Notes under the pieces: model-generated
What the model was told of the DNA's origin: nothing
Database searches by the model: none
The model's input: only the letters and a program-made list of their open reading frames with translations
Shown: piece after piece, positions 6,499-15,005 of the stretch
Layout of the letters: every line of letters begins with the position of its first letter
Position numbering within the stretch: position 1 is the stretch's first letter
Translations under genes and position numbers: made by a program
Source: Sphaerisporangium rubeum
GTDB taxonomy: Bacteria > Actinomycetota > Actinomycetes > Streptosporangiales > Streptosporangiaceae
DNA: 64,000 bases
Reading direction: 5' to 3'
NCBI RefSeq assembly: GCF_014207705.1
Contig: NZ_JACHIU010000001.1
Span: forward strand, 4,828,501 to 4,892,500

Positions 6499-8508
6499 CT
6501 ACTCCTTGTCGGCGGGGTCGAGGCCGCGGCCGGAGCGGTTCAGGCGGGAGAGGTAGTCGTTGTAGGCGTCGAGTTCGGCGTCGCCGGTGCCGCCGTCGCG
6601 GGCCGCCTTGGCGTCGGCTCTGCGGTCGGCGCGGCGGGACTTGCGGTTCTCGTCGCGGTACCACTGGAAGGCCAGCGCGATGAGGACGATCAAGGTGGGG
6701 ATCTCGCCGAAGGCCCAGGCGATGCCGCCGCCGGCCTGCTGGTCGGCCAGGGACGGCGAGCCCCAGGTGCGGCCGAGCTGGTCGTACCACTCGGCGGCGA
6801 TCACGGTCCCCATGTTCATCAGGGCGATGCCGAAGAACGCGTGGAACGGCATGGTGACGAACAGCAGGAGCAGGCGGCCGACGTACGGCAGCTTGGTGGG
6901 GGCCGGATCCACGCCGATGATCACCCAGAAGAACAGCGAGCCGCTGATCAGGAAGTGGAGGGTCATCGCGATGTGGCCGAGGTGCTCCTCCATCGCGGCG
7001 GCGAACAGCGGGGTGAAGTACAGCGCGTAGGTCGAGGTGATGAAGATCGCGGTGGCGATGGCGGGGTGGGTGATCACCTTGACGGCGCGGCTGTGCAGGA
7101 TGGTGACGAGCCACTCGCGGGGGCCGCGGTCGCCGCGGCGCAGGGCCGGTTTGAGCGCGCGCAGCGCGATGGTCACCGGAGCGCCGAGCACGAGGAAGAT
7201 CGGCACGATCATGGACAGCACCATGTGCTCGGCCATGTGGACGCTGAACAGCACCGGCGCGTACTTGGCGACGCCGCTCTGCGTGGCGAGCACGAGCAGC
7301 AGGACGCCGACGGCCCAGGCGACGGTGCGGCCGGTGGGCCAGTGGTCGCCGCGGCGGGACAGGCGAACGACGGCGGCGCCGTACAGGCCGGCGAGCACGG
7401 CGGCGAGCGCGCCGAAGAACAGGTCGAACCACCACAGGGTGGCGAGGTTGGCGAGGCTGATCGGCGGCGGGACGAGGTAGCCGAGGAGCTCGAACGCGCG
7501 GTCCACCGGCAGGTCGAGCGGTGGCGGCGCGGTGCGGGACAGCGCCACGGCCACGCCGACGGTGCCGAGCATGACGACGGCCTCGACGGCGGCGAGCCGC
7601 AGGAACGCGCCGGAGCGGCCGGAGGTGAGCTCGGGGACGGTGCGGCCCCGGTGCCACCAGCCGATCGCGCCGAGAGCGGCGAACGCGACGATCTTGGCGA
7701 GCAGCAGGACGCCGTAGGAGCTGATGAACAGCTCGGTGATCGAGGTGAGGCGCGCGATGGCGCTGAACAGCCCGGACAGGCCGACCCCGATGAAGCACCA
7801 CAGCGCGGCGCGGGAGAAGCGCCGCGCGGCCACGCCGAGGTCGGCGCCGCCGCGCAGGCCGTGCGCGCACAGCACCAGCAGGCCGCCGACCCAGACGGCG
7901 AGCACGAGCAGGTGGAGGGCCACGCCGGTGGTGGCGAGGCTGTGGTTGGGTGAGGAGGCCGAGTGGCCGGTGAGCGCCGGCGGCAGCAGGGTCGCGAGGG
8001 CCAGGATCAGCAGGCCCGCGGCGGCGCCCGCGGTGATGGCGCCGCGGCTGAACAGCGCGATGGCCGTGCCGAAGAGGACCACCAGGGTCAGGGCGATGCC
8101 TTGGGAGACCTGGCTGGCGTAGCTGGTCAGCTCGTCGCCGCCGAGCACCTCGATCACCGGCAGGCCGAGCGTCTCCGACAGGCTGAACACCAGGGTGGAC
8201 GCGGCGGCGGCGGCCCAGATCAGGCCACCCCAGGCCGCGGCCCTGGTGTAGCCGAGCGCGGTCTTGCCGAGGAGCCCCTTGTTGTTCGGCAGCAGCACCG
8301 ACGCCATGAGCAGCATGCCGACCGTCAGCACCCCGGCGATGTCCATGGTCGCCTTGGACAGCGGCAGGGCCCACCGGGTCAGCGTGCCTTCGTCCGGCAG
8401 CCCCGGGATGATGCGCGGCGTCGCGGCGCCCCCGGCGATCAGCGCCACCGCGAGGGCCCCGACCGCGACGAAGGCCCCGGCGAGCCCGAGCCTGAACGTC
8501 TTGGTCAT
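6499..8508 (-). CDS. CopD-CtaG fusion copper membrane protein
   Basis: A 669-residue polytopic membrane protein. The N-terminal half (about residues 10-320) is a CopD-like copper-resistance domain, with HLLVLAVWVGGLLVL and a GLFSAIARL helix. The C-terminal half (about 340-620) is a CtaG_Cox domain (FSVHMAEHMVLSM, HFLISGSLFFWVIIGVDP, MPFHAFFGIALMNMG), a family tied to copper delivery to cytochrome c oxidase. The His/Met pairs inside the helices are plausible copper ligands. The C-terminal ~50 residues are charged and cytoplasmic. Fusions of this type are common in actinobacteria. It lies downstream of copC on the same strand with a 127-bp gap, so copper import or delivery by the pair is likely. 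Confidence 0.9.
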   Translation of the reverse strand: MTKTFRLGLAGAFVAVGALAVALIAGGAATPRIIPGLPDEGTLTRWALPLSKATMDIAGVLTVGMLLMASVLLPNNKGLLGKTALGYTRAAAWGGLIWAAAAASTLVFSLSETLGLPVIEVLGGDELTSYASQVSQGIALTLVVLFGTAIALFSRGAITAGAAAGLLILALATLLPPALTGHSASSPNHSLATTGVALHLLVLAVWVGGLLVLCAHGLRGGADLGVAARRFSRAALWCFIGVGLSGLFSAIARLTSITELFISSYGVLLLAKIVAFAALGAIGWWHRGRTVPELTSGRSGAFLRLAAVEAVVMLGTVGVAVALSRTAPPPLDLPVDRAFELLGYLVPPPISLANLATLWWFDLFFGALAAVLAGLYGAAVVRLSRRGDHWPTGRTVAWAVGVLLLVLATQSGVAKYAPVLFSVHMAEHMVLSMIVPIFLVLGAPVTIALRALKPALRRGDRGPREWLVTILHSRAVKVITHPAIATAIFITSTYALYFTPLFAAAMEEHLGHIAMTLHFLISGSLFFWVIIGVDPAPTKLPYVGRLLLLFVTMPFHAFFGIALMNMGTVIAAEWYDQLGRTWGSPSLADQQAGGGIAWAFGEIPTLIVLIALAFQWYRDENRKSRRADRRADAKAARDGGTGDAELDAYNDYLSRLNRSGRGLDPADKE

Positions 8509-8635
8509 GGCCTCGCCACCGTGTCTCGCGCCACGCCGCAGGTGAGGACACCTGGGGCCGGGAGGTCGCCGTGAGAAGCCGCCGGCGGGTCAGGGGAGAC
8601 GCCGTGCGGTGGTGGGGCCGGGGTGCGCGGAGGGG

Positions 8636-9235
8636 TCATGTCTTCTTCCGCATGGTGATCAGCAGGCCGATGCCGACGCCTGCGATGCCGAAGACGACGA
8701 TCCAGACCCAGGCGGGGACGCCGCCGCGCTGCTCGGTGGCGTCGGCGGCGGGGGTGGCGGTGACCTCGGAAGGTTCGGTGGAGGCGGTGGTGGCCGCGCT
8801 CGGGGTGGCGTCGCCGGCCGGGGGGGCCAGGGTGTCGGTGGGGGACGGGGACGCCTCGGGGGACGGCTCGGGGGCCTCGACGGTGAAGGGGATCTCGCCT
8901 TCCACAGGGTGGCCGTCGGCGGAGACGACGCGCCAGGCGATGGTGTACTTGCCTGACGGGAGCGGGCCCGCGACCTTCTGGGTGATCACGGGGCCGTCGG
9001 CGTCCGGCTTGCCGTCGGCGTAGGCCTTGCCGCCGGCGTCGCGCACGAGGACCACGGGGAACTTCACGGACTCGGTGAAGGTGAGCTTCACCTCGTCCAG
9101 GGTCTCCACGGTGGCGCCCTTCTTGGGGCTGCTGCTCTTGAGAGCCGTGTGCGCGAGCGCCGGGGTCGCGATCACCGTGCCGGAAAGGACGGCGATCACG
9201 AGCGCGAGCACTGCGGCGAGCGGGGACGTCTTCAT
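8636..9235 (-). CDS. copC: CopC-family copper-binding protein, membrane anchored
   Basis: A 199-residue exported protein. A signal peptide ends ATPALA before His29, so the mature protein begins with the N-terminal His that supplies the CopC Cu(II) site. A second conserved His is in SADGHPVEG. The CopC beta-sandwich covers residues 29-125 (HTALKSSSPKKGATV, VKLTFTESV, GKYTIAWRVVS). A Pro/Ala/Ser/Thr-rich linker follows. A C-terminal TM helix (WVWIVVFGIAGVGIGLLI) with the tail RKKT anchors it. It probably hands copper to the CopD-CtaG protein. Its ribosome site, AGGGGG, ends 2 nt from the ATG and lies inside an inverted repeat described separately. Confidence 0.93.
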   Translation of the reverse strand: MKTSPLAAVLALVIAVLSGTVIATPALAHTALKSSSPKKGATVETLDEVKLTFTESVKFPVVLVRDAGGKAYADGKPDADGPVITQKVAGPLPSGKYTIAWRVVSADGHPVEGEIPFTVEAPEPSPEASPSPTDTLAPPAGDATPSAATTASTEPSEVTATPAADATEQRGGVPAWVWIVVFGIAGVGIGLLITMRKKT

Positions 9236-9526: not shown

Positions 9527-10810
9527 CTACAGGCCGGCGCAGGCGAGTGCGCGGTGGTAGGCGGCTTCGCTGGCCTCCTCGTCGCCGAGTTGTTCCAGTG
9601 CGGTGGCCGTGGTCAGCCAGCCCTCCGCGGCCCGGCGGGACGGGGGGGTGTTGACCAGCATGCTCTCCACGACGGTCAGCTCGGCGGAGGCCTCCTCGCT
9701 CTGGTGGAACAGCAGCAGAGCGTTGCCGAGGACCAGGTGGGCCTCGGCGAGGAGCGCCGAGGTGCGCTCGTCGAGCATGTCCCTGCCGCGGCGCGCGTAC
9801 TCGACGGCCTTGCCGGGGTCGCCGAGGACGATCTCGGCCTTGGCGAGGTTGACGAGGCACCGCGCGATGTCCACGGTGCTCGCCGACGACTCACGCAGTT
9901 CGCGCTCGCCGCGCAGCATGAGGTCGCGGCAGGCCTGGGCCTCGGCGGGACGCACACGCAGCCGCAGCAGCGCGTACGCCTGGCGGAGCCGTGCGAGGTT
10001 GCGGGACTCGCCGGTCTCGGACTGGACGGCGAGGGCACGCTCGGCGAGGCTGAGCGCCTCCTCGCCGCGGCCGGAGCTCTCGGCGACCAGTGCCGCGTTC
10101 CAGCACGCGGCGACGACGGCCCTCGGGGTGTTGAGGTTCTCGGCGGCGGTCAGCAGTTCGCGTGCGAACTGGCTGGCGCGCAGCAGGTCGCCCCGCACGA
10201 GGTAGGCCGCGAGCAGGGTGGCGCCGAGCTCGACGAGCTCGTCGTTCCATGCGGGACGGCCGGTGCCGAGCAGGGCCACCTCGCCGACGCGCACGGCCGC
10301 GGCGAGGTCGCCGCGCTCGCGGTGGCAGCGCGACAGCGCGACGGCGACGGCCACCGGCCGCTCCCCCGCGTCGCCGGCGTCGTGCAGCCGCGTGAGCACG
10401 GTGATCGCCTCGTCCAGGTCGCCGCAGGCCTCGCTGGCGAGCGCGTAGCCGAACTCGGCACGCTGCCGCAGGGGGGCCAGGCCGGCGAGACTGCCGTCCT
10501 CGAGGAGCTCGGCGTAGCGGCGCCGCGCTTCGGCGACCTCGCCGTTCTCCAGCGCCATGGAGGCGTAGTTGAGACCGAGTTCGAGATCGTGCATCTGCTC
10601 GGCGGTCACGCCGTTGATCAGATAGGTGAGCGAGCATTCCAGTTTGGCGGCGAGCAGTTCGAGCACCGCGACCGTGGGAGTTCGCTTCCCGCTCTCGATC
10701 AGTGATACATAACTATCCGACAACTCAGGGTGAGCCAGTTGCGCTTGCGATAGACCGCGTTGACGACGGATCGTCTTGATTCGCTGTCCAATAAGATCTT
10801 GACCGCTCAC
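9527..10810 (-). CDS. XRE-TPR transcriptional regulator (RRNPP-like architecture)
   Basis: A 427-residue cytoplasmic regulator. Residues 7-65 form an XRE helix-turn-helix (IRRQRGLSQAQLA, SDSYVSLIESGKRTP). From about residue 70 to the end the protein is all alpha-helical pairs of TPR type (AEARRRYAELLEDG, GDLDEAITVLTRLHDAG, DEEASEAAYHRALA), with no effector enzyme domain. GTG 10810 is chosen because AGGGGG lies 6 nt upstream; a longer frame to 10870 would run into the divergent peptide gene. HTH plus C-terminal TPR is the layout of Rgg, PlcR, NprR and PrgX, cytosolic receptors of small exported peptides. The neighbouring divergent gene encodes just such a peptide. The role as a peptide receptor is inferred. 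Confidence 0.85.
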   Translation of the reverse strand: MSGQDLIGQRIKTIRRQRGLSQAQLAHPELSDSYVSLIESGKRTPTVAVLELLAAKLECSLTYLINGVTAEQMHDLELGLNYASMALENGEVAEARRRYAELLEDGSLAGLAPLRQRAEFGYALASEACGDLDEAITVLTRLHDAGDAGERPVAVAVALSRCHRERGDLAAAVRVGEVALLGTGRPAWNDELVELGATLLAAYLVRGDLLRASQFARELLTAAENLNTPRAVVAACWNAALVAESSGRGEEALSLAERALAVQSETGESRNLARLRQAYALLRLRVRPAEAQACRDLMLRGERELRESSASTVDIARCLVNLAKAEIVLGDPGKAVEYARRGRDMLDERTSALLAEAHLVLGNALLLFHQSEEASAELTVVESMLVNTPPSRRAAEGWLTTATALEQLGDEEASEAAYHRALACAGL

Positions 10811-10827
10811 CGGCACCCCCTGAAGAT
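10799..10827 (+). promoter_or_regulatory. Possible promoter of the small peptide gene
   Basis: TTGACC at 10799-10804 is followed after 17 bp by GAAGAT at 10822-10827, which would start transcription ~30 nt before the peptide ATG. The -10 match is weak. The -35 box overlaps the start of the divergent regulator gene (start codon at 10808-10810), so the regulator could control both genes from one site. Confidence 0.3.
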
Positions 10828-10864
10828 GTAAGCCCCGGAAGACTGCGACAGACGGGAGTCCATC

Positions 10865-11002
10865 ATGCATCGCCGCCGCCTTGCGCTATGCGCCCTAGTA
10901 GTTTCCTTCACAACCATGTTCGGCCTCGCTGGCATCGGTACGTCCGCGCACGCCGCCGCAGCGACATACAACGTCCGCGCGGATTGGCACTTCTGCTGCT
11001 GA
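10865..11002 (+). CDS. Small secreted peptide precursor (candidate signal peptide)
   Basis: A 45-codon gene, too short for most gene finders. The ribosome site GGGAG (10854-10858) is 6 nt before ATG 10865, and the stop is TGA 11000-11002. The product has a textbook Sec signal: MHRRR, then the hydrophobic core LALCALVVSFTTMFGLAGIG, then TSAHAAA. This leaves a short mature tail, for example ATYNVRADWHFCC if cleaved after AAA. The codons include CTA, CTT, GTA and GTT, unusual beside the surrounding GC-rich genes. It starts 54 bp from the divergent XRE-TPR regulator. It is probably an exported signal acting on that regulator; a secreted antimicrobial or modified peptide is an alternative. Confidence 0.8.
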   Translation: MHRRRLALCALVVSFTTMFGLAGIGTSAHAAAATYNVRADWHFCC

Positions 11003-11014
11003 TCAGTAGCAATA

Positions 11015-12616
11015 TCAACCCGCCCTTAACGCAAGGAAAAGATCCACTCTGTCCGCCATAGAGGACAGATCTCGCCCGGTCAGCTCCTCGACGCGTCGAA
11101 TACGGTATCGCACGGTGTTCACGTGCACGTGCAAACGCTCGGCGCAGATGTTCCAGGACCCAGCGCAGTCCAGGAACGTACCGAGGGTGCGGACCAGCTC
11201 TGACTGGTGGCGACGGTCGTAGACGAACAGCGGTGACAGGATCCGGTCCGCGAAGGACCGCCGCACATCGTCGGGAACGGTGGCCAGCAACAGAGCATGT
11301 GTGTAGATCTCGTCGCTGGTCACCACTCCCCCGCCGCGCGCTTCGGCCAGCCGACGCGCGTGACCTGCCTCTTCTGCTCCCCCCCGCACGGCGCCTGGCC
11401 CGGTCAGCGCGGCGCTGACGCCGACCGACACCCGGCTCTCGGGCAGCCCGGCCTGGAGCGTCGACACCCGCTGGGTCAGCAGGCCCGACAACGCTCGCAC
11501 GCTACGCTGCACTTGCATCTGCACGAGATTCCGTCCTTGCACATGCACGGGATCCGAATGTTGCAAATGCACGATCTCATCAGTACCGAGAGTACGCAAT
11601 GGCACGAGGGCTACAGCCCCGTCCGCTCCCGCCGCCGCGACCACCCGGCGCTCCAGCATCTCCTCCAGAACACGACCCCCTAGGACCGCCGGATCAGGCC
11701 CCTCTGTGGCCCCCGGCCGTACCACGGTGGCCGTCACCACGGCGTACGGCTCCTCCGGGTCGATCCCGCACGTGCGCAGCCGCGCCGCCAGTTCGGCGGT
11801 CCCCGCGGTGCCGGACGACGCGGCGCCGATGAGCTGCTCGGCGAGCCGCCGCTCCACCCGGCGGCCCTCCTCACGGCGGCTGCGTTCCAGCGCGGCGCAC
11901 GCGGCCAGCTCGTAGCCGGTGTCGGCGCGGTCCAGCAGGTCGCCGCCGCAGGCCAGGGCCCAGCCCGCGGCCCGGTGGGCCCGGTCCACCGCGAACAGGG
12001 TGAACGGGCCCTGGGGGGTGCGCACCAGGTGCGGCAGCCGGGTCGCGGCCAGGTACTCGCGGGCCAGCAGGCCGGCCGTCCCCTCGGCGAGACCGCCGGC
12101 GACGACGGTGCCGACCGCCGAGATCACCGCGCCGGTCATGCCGAGCTCCCCGGCGATCAGCGCGCACAGTTCGTCGAGGCCCGCGCCTTCGGCGACCGCG
12201 GCGACGATCCTGCGGTGCCGGCCGAGCGCGCCGCGCAGGTCGCCGGCGTGGGACTCCACCGCGTCGCTGAGCGTGCGGAACGACACCTCCTCCGGCACGT
12301 CGAGCAGCGGCAGGTCGTGTTCGCGGCACGCCTCCACCAGGTCACCCGGCACGTGGCCGAGCCAGGCGCGGCCCGCGGCGAGCGCGCCGACCCCGGCCGC
12401 GGCGAGGATCTCCACGAAACGCCGCGAGTCGCCGGGGTCCCTGCGCCACATCAGGCCGGTCAGCACCAGCTCGCCGCCTGCCAGGTAACGGCCGGGGTCG
12501 GGGAGGTCGGTGATGTAGACGCCGGTCACCCGCCGGTCCAGGTGGTGGTCACCGGTCAGCAGGGTGACGGCGCCGAGGCCCCGCGTCCCGAGCAGCTCAC
12601 TTATCCGCACAGACAC
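11015..12616 (-). CDS. PucR-family transcriptional regulator
   Basis: A 533-residue regulator. The N-terminal PucR domain (about residues 1-125: VRISELLG, RRVTGVYITDLPDPGRYL, LVLTGLMW) resembles those of purine-catabolism regulators. The C-terminus carries the PucR helix-turn-helix (GSWNICAERLHVHVNTVRYRIRRVEELTG). Between them lies a GGDEF-like region that includes an eight-residue repeat (VHLQ.., VHVQ.., VQMQ..) encoded by a 24-bp DNA repeat. GTG 12616 (VSVRISELLG) is the likely start, though no good ribosome site is seen; GTG 12610 is possible. It is divergent from a xanthine-dehydrogenase-type gene 112 bp away, which it probably controls. Confidence 0.88.
   Translation of the reverse strand: MSVRISELLGTRGLGAVTLLTGDHHLDRRVTGVYITDLPDPGRYLAGGELVLTGLMWRRDPGDSRRFVEILAAAGVGALAAGRAWLGHVPGDLVEACREHDLPLLDVPEEVSFRTLSDAVESHAGDLRGALGRHRRIVAAVAEGAGLDELCALIAGELGMTGAVISAVGTVVAGGLAEGTAGLLAREYLAATRLPHLVRTPQGPFTLFAVDRAHRAAGWALACGGDLLDRADTGYELAACAALERSRREEGRRVERRLAEQLIGAASSGTAGTAELAARLRTCGIDPEEPYAVVTATVVRPGATEGPDPAVLGGRVLEEMLERRVVAAAGADGAVALVPLRTLGTDEIVHLQHSDPVHVQGRNLVQMQVQRSVRALSGLLTQRVSTLQAGLPESRVSVGVSAALTGPGAVRGGAEEAGHARRLAEARGGGVVTSDEIYTHALLLATVPDDVRRSFADRILSPLFVYDRRHQSELVRTLGTFLDCAGSWNICAERLHVHVNTVRYRIRRVEELTGRDLSSMADRVDLFLALRAG
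11513..11573. repeat. Three-copy 24-bp repeat inside the PucR gene
   Basis: TTGCATCTGCACG (11513), TTGCACATGCACG (11537) and TTGCAAATGCACG (11561) repeat at exactly 24 bp, keeping the reading frame and giving an eight-residue protein period. The stretch is lower in GC than the rest of the gene. The 13-mer closely matches TTGCAAGTGCACG at 42002-42014 in the promoter of the anti-sigma-type ATPase gene. Confidence 0.8.
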
Positions 12617-12728
12617 CAGGCTAAGCGCGCCGCTTTGGACGAACCTACAACCGGTCGCGGCGGCCGGCGGCGGCGTTTCGCGGTCGTGTCCATTGGCCGC
12701 CTCATCGGGGCCTTGATGTACTGCCGGA

Positions 12729-15005
12729 GTGAGCCATACCACGAGCGGTCAGAGCCGGACGGCGCCGGCGGGCCTCGGCGTGGGGGCCAGCGCGCCTCGG
12801 CCCGACGGCACCCTGAAGGTCACCGGCGAGTTCGCCTACTCCTCCGACCTGTACCTCACCGGCATGCTGTGGGGTGCCACCCTGCGCAGCCCGCACCCGT
12901 CGGCGTGGATCAGGTCGATCGACGTCGGACCGGCGCTGGCCATGCCGGGGGTGCACGCCGTGCTGACCCACGAGGACGTGCCGGGTGAGAAGTTCTACGG
13001 CCTCGACGTCAAGGACCAGCCGGTGCTCGCCGTCGACCAGGTGCGCTACCAGGGTGAGCCGGTCGCGATCGTGGCGGCCGACCACCCGGAGACGGCGCGG
13101 CGCGCGGCGGCGGCGATCGTCGTGGAGTACGAGGAGCGCGAGCCGGTCACCGACCCGCGCCGTGCGGCGTTCGACGCGGACTGTCCCAAGGTGCATCCGC
13201 GCGGCAACGTCGTGCGGTACCAGCCGGTGCGGGTGGGGTCGGTGTTCGAGGCCGACGTCGTGGTGCGCGGCGAGTACGAGGTCGGCATGCAGGACCAGGC
13301 GTTCCTCGGGCCGGAGTCGGGGCTCGCGGTGCCGGCCGAGGACGGCGGCGTCGACCTGTTCGTCGCCACGCAGTGGCTGCACGTGGACCGTGAGCAGATC
13401 GCGCCGTGCCTCGGACTGCCGCAGGACAAGGTGCGGCTGACGCTCGCCGGGGTCGGCGGCGCGTTCGGCGCGCGCGAGGACCTGTCGATGCAGGTGCACG
13501 CGTCCCTGCTGGCGCTGCGCACCGGACGGCCCGTCAAGATCGTTTATGGCCGGCAGGAGTCGTTCCACGGCCACGTGCACCGGCATCCGGCGCGCATGCG
13601 GTACGAGCACGGCGCCACCGCCGACGGCCGGCTCGTGTACGTGAAGGCCGAGATCGTGCTGGACGGCGGGGCCTACTGCTCGTCCACCCCCGCGGTGGTC
13701 GGCAACGCCGCCTCGCTCGGCGTGGGGCCGTACGAGGTGGCCAACGTCGAGATCGACGCGTACGGCGTGTACACCAACAACCCGCCGTGCGGCGCGATGC
13801 GCGGGTTCGGCGCGGTGCAGGCGTGCTACGCCTACGAGTCGCAGATGGACCGGGTCGCGCAGGCGTGCGGGCTCGACCCGGTGGAGGTCCGGGTGCGCAA
13901 CGCGGTGGCGCAGGGGTCGCGCCTGGCCACCGGCCAGGTCATCGAGTCGCCGGCGCCGCTCGCCGGCATGCTCAAGGAACTGGCCGCGACACCGATGCCG
14001 CCGGAGCGCGCCGGCTCGGACCTGCGGTCGCTGCCCGGCGGCGTGGCGCAGACCACGCACGGCGAAGGGGTGCGGCGCGGCGTCGGGTACGGCGTCGGGA
14101 TCAAGAACATCTGTTACTCGGAGGGGTTCGACGACCACTCGACGGCGCGGGTGCGGATCGAGCTGCTCGGCGGCGAGCCGCACGTCCTCGTGCACACCGC
14201 CGCCGCCGAGGTGGGTCAGGGCCTGGTGATGGTGCAGGCGCAGATCGCGCGCACCGAGCTCGGCGTCGAGCGGGTCACCGTGGCCCCCGCCGACACGACC
14301 GTCGGCTCCGCGGGTTCCACGTCGGCGTCCCGGCAGTCGTACGTCACCGGCGGGGCCGTCCGTGAGGCATGCCTCGCGGTGCGCGAACGGCTGGACGCGC
14401 TGCGTGCCGCGAACCCCGAGTCGTCGCTGGCCGAGATCCTGGAGACGTCGGGGCCGGTCGAGGAGACCCGCGAGTACCGGCACCGGCCGACCTTCCCCAT
14501 GGACCCGGTGACGGGCCAAGGCGACTCGCACGTGCAGCTCGCGCTGTGCGTGCACCGCGCCGTGGTGGACGTGGACGTGGACCTCGGCCTGGTGAAGGTC
14601 GTGGAGCTGACGGCCGTGCAGGACGTCGGCAGGATTCTCAACCCGCTCGCGCTGGAGGGACAGATCCACGGCGGCACCGCGCAAGGGCTCGGCCTCGCGC
14701 TCATGGAGGAGATCCAGGTGCGCGACGGCCGCATGCTGAACCCGTCGTTCACCGACTACCTGATCCCCACCGTCCTCGACATGCCGCCGATGACCATCTC
14801 GATCCTGGAGAACCCCGACCCGGACGCGCCGTACGGCCTGCGCGGCGCCGGCGAGCCCCCCACGCTGTCCTCGACCCCCGCCATCGCCGCCGCCGTGCGC
14901 GACGCGACCGGCCTCGCGCTGCCGAGGATCCCCCTGCGGCCGGCCGACATCGCACTGCCGGCCGGCGACGTGGCCGGCGGCGCGGTCACCGGCGCGGTCA
15001 GGTGA
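12729..15005 (+). CDS. Xanthine dehydrogenase-type molybdopterin-binding subunit
   Basis: A 758-residue large subunit of the xanthine oxidase family, hydroxylating purines or aldehydes at a molybdenum centre. Visible motifs are GGAFGARED, MRGFGAVQ, TAAAEVGQG and STSASRQSY around the Mo cofactor, and LRGAGEPP with Glu709 as the expected catalytic base. GTG 12729 is used; the ribosome site is weak. Divergence from a PucR regulator suggests purine catabolism. The FAD and 2Fe-2S subunits normally encoded beside it are absent on either side, so they must lie elsewhere or this is an orphan paralogue. The 3' end overlaps the convergent neighbour by 8 bp. Confidence 0.9.
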   Translation: MSHTTSGQSRTAPAGLGVGASAPRPDGTLKVTGEFAYSSDLYLTGMLWGATLRSPHPSAWIRSIDVGPALAMPGVHAVLTHEDVPGEKFYGLDVKDQPVLAVDQVRYQGEPVAIVAADHPETARRAAAAIVVEYEEREPVTDPRRAAFDADCPKVHPRGNVVRYQPVRVGSVFEADVVVRGEYEVGMQDQAFLGPESGLAVPAEDGGVDLFVATQWLHVDREQIAPCLGLPQDKVRLTLAGVGGAFGAREDLSMQVHASLLALRTGRPVKIVYGRQESFHGHVHRHPARMRYEHGATADGRLVYVKAEIVLDGGAYCSSTPAVVGNAASLGVGPYEVANVEIDAYGVYTNNPPCGAMRGFGAVQACYAYESQMDRVAQACGLDPVEVRVRNAVAQGSRLATGQVIESPAPLAGMLKELAATPMPPERAGSDLRSLPGGVAQTTHGEGVRRGVGYGVGIKNICYSEGFDDHSTARVRIELLGGEPHVLVHTAAAEVGQGLVMVQAQIARTELGVERVTVAPADTTVGSAGSTSASRQSYVTGGAVREACLAVRERLDALRAANPESSLAEILETSGPVEETREYRHRPTFPMDPVTGQGDSHVQLALCVHRAVVDVDVDLGLVKVVELTAVQDVGRILNPLALEGQIHGGTAQGLGLALMEEIQVRDGRMLNPSFTDYLIPTVLDMPPMTISILENPDPDAPYGLRGAGEPPTLSSTPAIAAAVRDATGLALPRIPLRPADIALPAGDVAGGAVTGAVR

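Follow-up and report, generated by a model that had tools for sequence, protein, structure and literature searches.

Could two divergent genes on an actinomycete chromosome, one for a DNA-binding regulator and one for a short peptide predicted to be secreted, form a signalling pair of the RRNPP type? The question is raised by a 64,000-nucleotide stretch of the 7.5-Mb genome of Sphaerisporangium rubeum (RefSeq assembly GCF_014207705.1, contig NZ_JACHIU010000001.1, positions 4,828,501 to 4,892,500 of the forward strand; hereafter the window, with positions counted from its first nucleotide). Here a gene for an XRE-TPR regulator lies beside a divergent 45-codon gene, and a reading of the sequence alone (the original prediction) had proposed them as receptor and peptide. 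As a candidate that proposal stands: the small gene is retained beside all 80 close orthologues of the regulator that were fetched, the peptide ends are kept, and PlcR is among the closest solved relatives. We consider it probable that the two genes work together in peptide signalling of an RRNPP-like kind. What is directly supported is the presence of both genes, their tight linkage in the family, the conservation of the peptide ends at the protein level, a peptide class that follows the regulator tree, and a PlcR-like fold.

The gene pair and its conservation in Streptosporangiaceae

Both genes were confirmed where the prediction had placed them. When the GTG at 10810, which is preceded by a well-spaced Shine-Dalgarno sequence (AGGGGG), is taken as the regulator's start, exactly 54 bp lie between it and the ATG at 10865, as had been claimed; most analyses used the frame 9530-10813, which is one codon longer. 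The regulator's Pfam matches are HTH_3 (E 2e-10) at the N-terminus and several TPR families. The small gene also agreed with its earlier description as having a ribosome site (GGGAG), a signal-type N-terminus and a short tail: the 45-residue precursor starts with an n-region containing RRR, followed by a hydrophobic core and a predicted cleavage site, A-H-A (assessed by eye and with our own hydrophobicity and charge score), and its last residues are ADWHFCC. GC content over the start of the pair, in 500-base steps, was 0.60-0.61 vs 0.66-0.79 in the adjacent steps, and a scan for the sigma-70 consensus did not find a promoter.

We scanned genome contigs for the regulator using a 19-row alignment; of 397 matches that were confirmed, the best 80 served as named orthologous loci (55-81% identity to the window regulator, the closest being from Sphaerisporangium, Streptosporangiaceae). 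The prediction had proposed that homologues be checked for an adjoining small gene, and every one of these 80 fetched regulators, all at least 55% identical, has a divergent open reading frame (ORF) with a signal-peptide-like N-terminus. These ORFs encode 40-58 aa (mostly 41-50) and begin 49-63 bp from the first matched regulator codon; with the window's own precursor included, a permissive [AVSTGIL]-x-A cleavage site is present at residues 22-36 in 81/81. When strict rules on ribosome site, spacing and length were applied, 76/80 regulators passed versus 0/372 control ORFs (other ORFs of at least 200 aa at the same loci). The closest loci of a whole-genome search (L001-L021), a set that overlaps the named one, had a divergent signal-peptide ORF in 21/21 cases.

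The expectation of a conserved C-terminus was borne out for the extreme end of the peptide: 71/80 named loci end in an exact Cys-Cys (CC) and 9/80 in W-x-x-P. The preceding residues differ by species. The nine W-x-x-P loci come from Streptosporangium, Planomonospora and Planobispora, carry 0 or 1 residue after the motif, and have the ends GWNHPD, GWGYPD, SWSYPD, GWVYPG, WQWPI and WNGPW; one tail from the whole-genome search (L017) ends YGWGWPG. By analogy, such variation upstream of a conserved end resembles pherotypes.

In 72/72 sequences of CC type the two cysteines are encoded by TGC or TGT, TGC TGC being the commonest pair (66/72), and all three stop codons occur; because both Cys and stop codons vary, the Cys-Cys constraint acts on the protein. 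Pooled over eight genus-level groups, the ratio of non-synonymous to synonymous substitution rates (dN/dS) was 0.52 in the signal part but reached 0.73 in the tail, and by this measure the precursor is under constraint while its tail is fast-evolving. A pair of terminal Cys codons also brings to mind cysteine-sensing leader ORFs, which can have consecutive terminal Cys codons and act as attenuators. We regard such an attenuator as extremely improbable here: the small ORF has a predicted signal peptide, Cys-free versions exist, predicted folding of the 3' stretch is indistinguishable from that of shuffled sequences (z -0.10), and in the window the next gene, of PucR type, is convergent and thus leaves nothing downstream to attenuate.

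Fold of the proposed receptor and its evolution with the peptide

An AlphaFold2 model of the window regulator, built from a 61-row alignment, showed an all-helical TPR superhelix (pLDDT 91, pTM 0.80). When this model was compared with the PDB by Foldseek, the first match was the PlcR-PapR7-DNA complex (E 1.3e-7; TM 0.38 for the query and 0.55 for the target), and rank 12 was a phage Rap bound to its pheromone. In a sequence profile search of the PDB, which also matched designed and eukaryotic TPR proteins, PlcR was the highest-scoring HTH-TPR protein (E 3.6e-8) and NprR came next. The modelled PlcR-like HTH-TPR fold fits an RRNPP-type receptor, without proving one. At 427 aa and with TPRs, the regulator falls inside the 250-500 aa range given for RRNPP receptors in PMC10075063. 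The layout criterion for such systems is an adjoining precursor gene of 10-100 aa; here the precursor has 45 aa and lies 54 bp away.

Four peptide classes mapped on a tree of 83 regulators required 6 changes, vs a mean of 34.6 after shuffling; the tree holds 47 of the 81 window-plus-named regulators and 36 others, 31 of these picked for having a peptide, and its clustering is eased by near-copies among the rows. The nine W-x-x-P loci form a single clade with support 100 (in a version of the tree with two paralogue rows out of frame). Across 62 CC-type systems, tail distance correlated with TPR distance at r 0.41 and with HTH distance at 0.23; the partial tail-TPR correlation given signal-peptide distance was 0.32, a value reached by 0/2000 permutations that carried no phylogenetic correction. 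As far as sequence comparison can tell, peptide class follows the regulator tree, and peptide and receptor evolve together.

Peptides in other actinobacterial families

Regulator matches were present in 38/396 genomes of the phylum. Our distant scan covered the surroundings of these matches together with relatives from further regulator searches; the labels Micrococcaceae-like and Streptomycetaceae-like used below are inferred family names. Signal-peptide ORFs in these distant families are mostly 28-35 aa long, with the tails GFPWPK, GYPWPK, SFPWGGT, NWPHH, NWPKH, GWPKH, NWPHVP, APWPHCC, APWPPCC, APFPGCCG and PTWPHC, as well as SIEWP, SIDWP, DIDWP, MIDWP and EIGWP. Trp-Pro and Cys-Cys are the features common across relatives, and a likeness of the window peptide's D-W to streptococcal SHP and XIP signals, which the prediction had drawn, found no support. 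The single-copy form of Streptomycetaceae-like genomes lies upstream of the regulator on the same strand and is not divergent.

One rule was applied to four sets of loci. A signal-peptide ORF with a Trp-Pro, aromatic-Pro or CC tail was found in 60/93 entries vs 5/136 control ORFs; sets B and C have eight loci in common, and B and D one, so that the distinct count is 52/84. When any small signal-peptide ORF with a ribosome site was accepted, motif or not, the figures were 67/93 vs 15/136. The 93 entries omit L186, L192, L193 and L194 (where the match lacks the HTH start) and weaker unfetched rows; L215 was scored as a miss despite two copies of GNWPDPM, having no ribosome-site match, as were L177 and L208 despite a W-P ORF at the other end of the regulator gene.

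Multi-copy precursors occur in Micrococcaceae-like and Streptomycetaceae-like genomes. Their repeat units are GNWPDPM (2-5 copies), GNWPDP (3-4), VGNWPDA (4-6), VGDWPH-type (6-8), VGEWPH (2), GNWPN (4), DISWP (3), DIEWP (2) and DIGWP (2); a plasmid of Streptomyces sp. NBC_01006 (L293) encodes a precursor with three copies of DIGWP that is annotated as a hypothetical protein. The six VGDWPH copies of L236 show synonymous differences in 50/90 codon pairs, and the four VGNWPDP copies of L222 in 21/42. Since units were picked by a fixed amino-acid pattern, the zero non-synonymous differences arise by construction and the synonymous count is the informative one; for L233 the pattern allowed D or N, and 12 such differences were seen. 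Copies that are old by synonymous divergence still encode the identical peptide, which argues that the repeat unit is under selection. The copies in L227, L228 and L229 are identical in DNA and may be recent or homogenised. To judge by these patterns, the conserved repeat units probably give the mature peptide. They also bear on a toxin-antitoxin-like reading, in which a small membrane-active peptide is repressed by the XRE protein: XRE repressors are common antitoxins, but one would not expect a toxin to have a cleavable signal peptide followed by a tail, to consist of short units repeated in tandem, or to be partnered by a receptor-like TPR protein, and we judge this reading very unlikely.

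A small divergent ORF had been predicted beside each homologue. That held for the 80 close orthologues and only in part for distant homologues, which often lack one. The homologues L020, L021, L024 and L025 (36-46% identity) have CC-tailed signal-peptide ORFs, and no convincing small ORF was found for L022, L023, L026 and L027 (35-41%), which are from the same family as the window; nor was one found in a second Micrococcaceae-like subfamily (L232, L237-L241, L257, L258, L260, L261). The window regulator matches 19 plasmid records; seven were read, of which L167 (Nonomuraea) has a CC-tailed signal-peptide ORF and L161-L166 gave no small signal-peptide ORF. The regulators of L263 and L213 match 37 and 31 plasmid records, respectively, of which ten were read.

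Several of our results weigh against a signalling pair. In the stretches L141-L160 (30-39% identity), no divergent signal-peptide ORF was preceded by a ribosome site matching at 4 or more bases (0/20); 14 of these regulators represent a conserved chromosomal paralogue, and L144 sits at a contig end with its upstream side missing. A motif-tailed signal-peptide ORF was absent from 33/93 distant regulator entries (32/84 distinct loci), and a motif-bearing one was present in 1/10 further Streptomycetaceae plasmid homologues (L293 only). The tail of L018, from the whole-genome search, has neither CC nor W-P, and the residues before CC change quickly (see the tail dN/dS above) even between close species, for example in Microbispora. 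As for the fold, the other top-50 PDB matches are mostly eukaryotic or designed TPR proteins, the eukaryotic ones with nearly equal scores, the TM to PlcR is modest, and TPR folds have many kinds of binding partner. The L141-L160 and same-family comparisons imply that the peptide gene tracks certain regulator branches, not XRE-TPR proteins generally. On balance we lean towards the view that Actinomycetota have their own phylum-wide peptide signalling, in which XRE-TPR receptors would have secreted peptides of the Trp-Pro or Cys-Cys type as partners, some of them tandem multi-copy, in many species-specific dialects.

Some relatives depart from these arrangements. In L181 and L186 the TPR gene is followed closely, on its own strand, by a small ORF that has a strong ribosome site and a signal-peptide-like start (tails GFGMSDGGGF and HTWSDGH), which is the gene order of Rap-Phr. 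L182 has a 38-aa divergent signal-peptide ORF ending QDCVQVLQYKYCL, which contains Cys and is unlike the CC and W-P types. Finally, Micrococcaceae-like genomes contain relatives that match the TPR part only, in frames of ~340-400 aa (e.g. G557:C1:50599-51615); from their sequence, these are perhaps receptors without an HTH.

Surroundings, proposed mechanism and known systems

Table 1. Features of the locus, in window coordinates.
Feature	Coordinates	Strand	Basis or remark
Presumed CopD/CtaG-like membrane protein gene, candidate target only	6499..8508	-	conserved neighbour, 78/80 loci
copC, same-strand neighbour, candidate target only	8636..9235	-	Pfam CopC
XRE-TPR regulator gene, proposed peptide receptor	9527..10810	-	427 codons plus stop, GTG start at 10810
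54-bp divergent control region common to both genes	10811..10864	.	sequence
Shine-Dalgarno GGGAG of peptide gene	10854..10858	+	sequence; GGAG retained in alignment of orthologous loci
Putative secreted-peptide precursor gene, 45 codons	10865..11002	+	ORF; divergent counterpart in 80/80 named orthologous loci
Predicted Sec signal peptide, residues 1-30, ends A-H-A	10865..10954	+	sequence
Predicted secreted tail AAATYNVRADWHFCC, 15 residues	10955..10999	+	terminal Cys-Cys is the conserved part
PucR-type gene	11015-12742	convergent with peptide gene	ORF list

The gene copC follows the regulator on its strand in 78/80 Streptosporangiaceae loci with a median gap of 84 bp, and all nine Cys-free W-x-x-P loci retain both copper-type neighbours (9/9). 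The opposite flank is variable, with a PucR-type gene in 46 loci, one that we take to be xanthine dehydrogenase-like in 46, and a presumably SARP/BTAD-like one in 23 (the CopC and PucR names are not such assumptions). Neither copC nor the CopD/CtaG-like gene was found in 20 wider stretches of other clades, and when 15 of these stretches were clustered by gene content only the regulator was common to most; Micrococcaceae-like loci share what are presumably purine-synthesis genes and an ATP-binding cassette (ABC) exporter pair. Two genes that form a unit by themselves are what a signalling module could look like, and the copper genes (6499-9235, minus strand) are possibly a lineage-specific target operon.

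The same neighbourhood suggests another role for the peptide. Vicinal cysteines bind metals, and next to copC the tail might be a regulated secreted Cys-Cys effector, copper-binding for example, with the XRE-TPR protein sensing something else. Yet the W-x-x-P loci keep the copper neighbours with tails that lack cysteine, other clades have peptides without the copper neighbours, and multi-copy Cys-free units are unlike a metal chelator; we consider an effector unlikely. A smaller chance still attaches to an antimicrobial or RiPP-like (ribosomally synthesised and post-translationally modified) secreted peptide under control of the XRE regulator. In its favour, precursors in such systems can be short and variable, are secreted and in some cases contain several cores. 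Modification, dedicated export and immunity genes were not recognised among conserved neighbours (80 loci and 15 wider stretches, the neighbours being only partly family-scanned), a negative qualified by the presumed exporter pair of Micrococcaceae-like loci, and the peptide class tracks the receptor tree.

Some mobile relatives have neighbours of their own. XRE-TPR regulators at six Streptomyces plasmid loci (L288, L289, L290, L292, L293, L294) adjoin biosynthetic genes: nonribosomal peptide synthetase, ketosynthase, acyl carrier, ATP-grasp and SARP. A faecal phage contig (MT836207.1, 86-1069) encodes, near the end of the record, a relative of the window regulator that is 37.7% identical over 76% of the latter. 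A phage origin was rejected: this is the one phage record for the window regulator, L213 and L263 had none, and none was found in viral contigs.

For the RRNPP-like module that we favour, we infer export, maturation, re-import, binding and gene control by analogy. Sec would export the precursor, and signal peptidase, perhaps with another protease, would release a short C-terminal peptide, in the window one ending ADWHFCC. At sufficient concentration this peptide would re-enter through an oligopeptide ABC importer, a step that is possible because the window's genome encodes nine SBP_bac_5 oligopeptide-binding proteins. It would then bind the groove of the regulator's TPR superhelix and shift DNA binding, altering repression or activation first at the shared divergent promoter. 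Further genes would probably be controlled, copC and the CopD/CtaG-like gene being the conserved candidates in Streptosporangiaceae.

Signals exchanged between actinobacterial cells are, as the literature describes them, typically small molecules, gamma-butyrolactones for example (PMC10075063, PMC13220807), and the RRNPP_detector survey covered Firmicutes and viruses only (PMC10075063). A literature search that included these papers and PMC7425212, with preprints and most subscription journals outside its scope, found no such actinobacterial system in the text available, and five repeat motifs occurred there only in two unrelated papers. Judged by its sequence, the pair has an RRNPP layout. 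If the reading is right, a peptide language is added to a phylum whose signals are regarded as mainly small molecules, and short synthetic peptides would be direct probes of transcription in actinomycetes, perhaps also of their development or of biosynthetic clusters that are silent.

Among known systems the closest is PlcR-PapR of the Bacillus cereus group, where an HTH and TPR regulator adjoins a short secreted precursor, as the window regulator adjoins a putative one, and which gave the top HTH-TPR match by fold and profile. It differs in that the window pair belongs to another phylum, is divergent with 54 bp between starts, has a regulator with a longer TPR part (427 aa vs chains of 280-293 aa), and has peptides with CC or Trp-Pro ends. 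NprR, Rap, ComR/Rgg and AloR-AloP share the two-gene layout, the receptor length, the TPRs and a precursor of 10-100 aa, which in the window is Sec-type by prediction, with a phage Rap among the fold matches, but they have been described in Bacillota and in mobile elements of that phylum. In the yeast alpha-factor precursor a signal peptide precedes a tandem series of nearly identical peptides, set apart by spacers that vary. The multi-copy precursors of Micrococcaceae-like and Streptomycetaceae-like relatives resemble it by analogy only, not homology, being bacterial and paired with a cytosolic TPR regulator.
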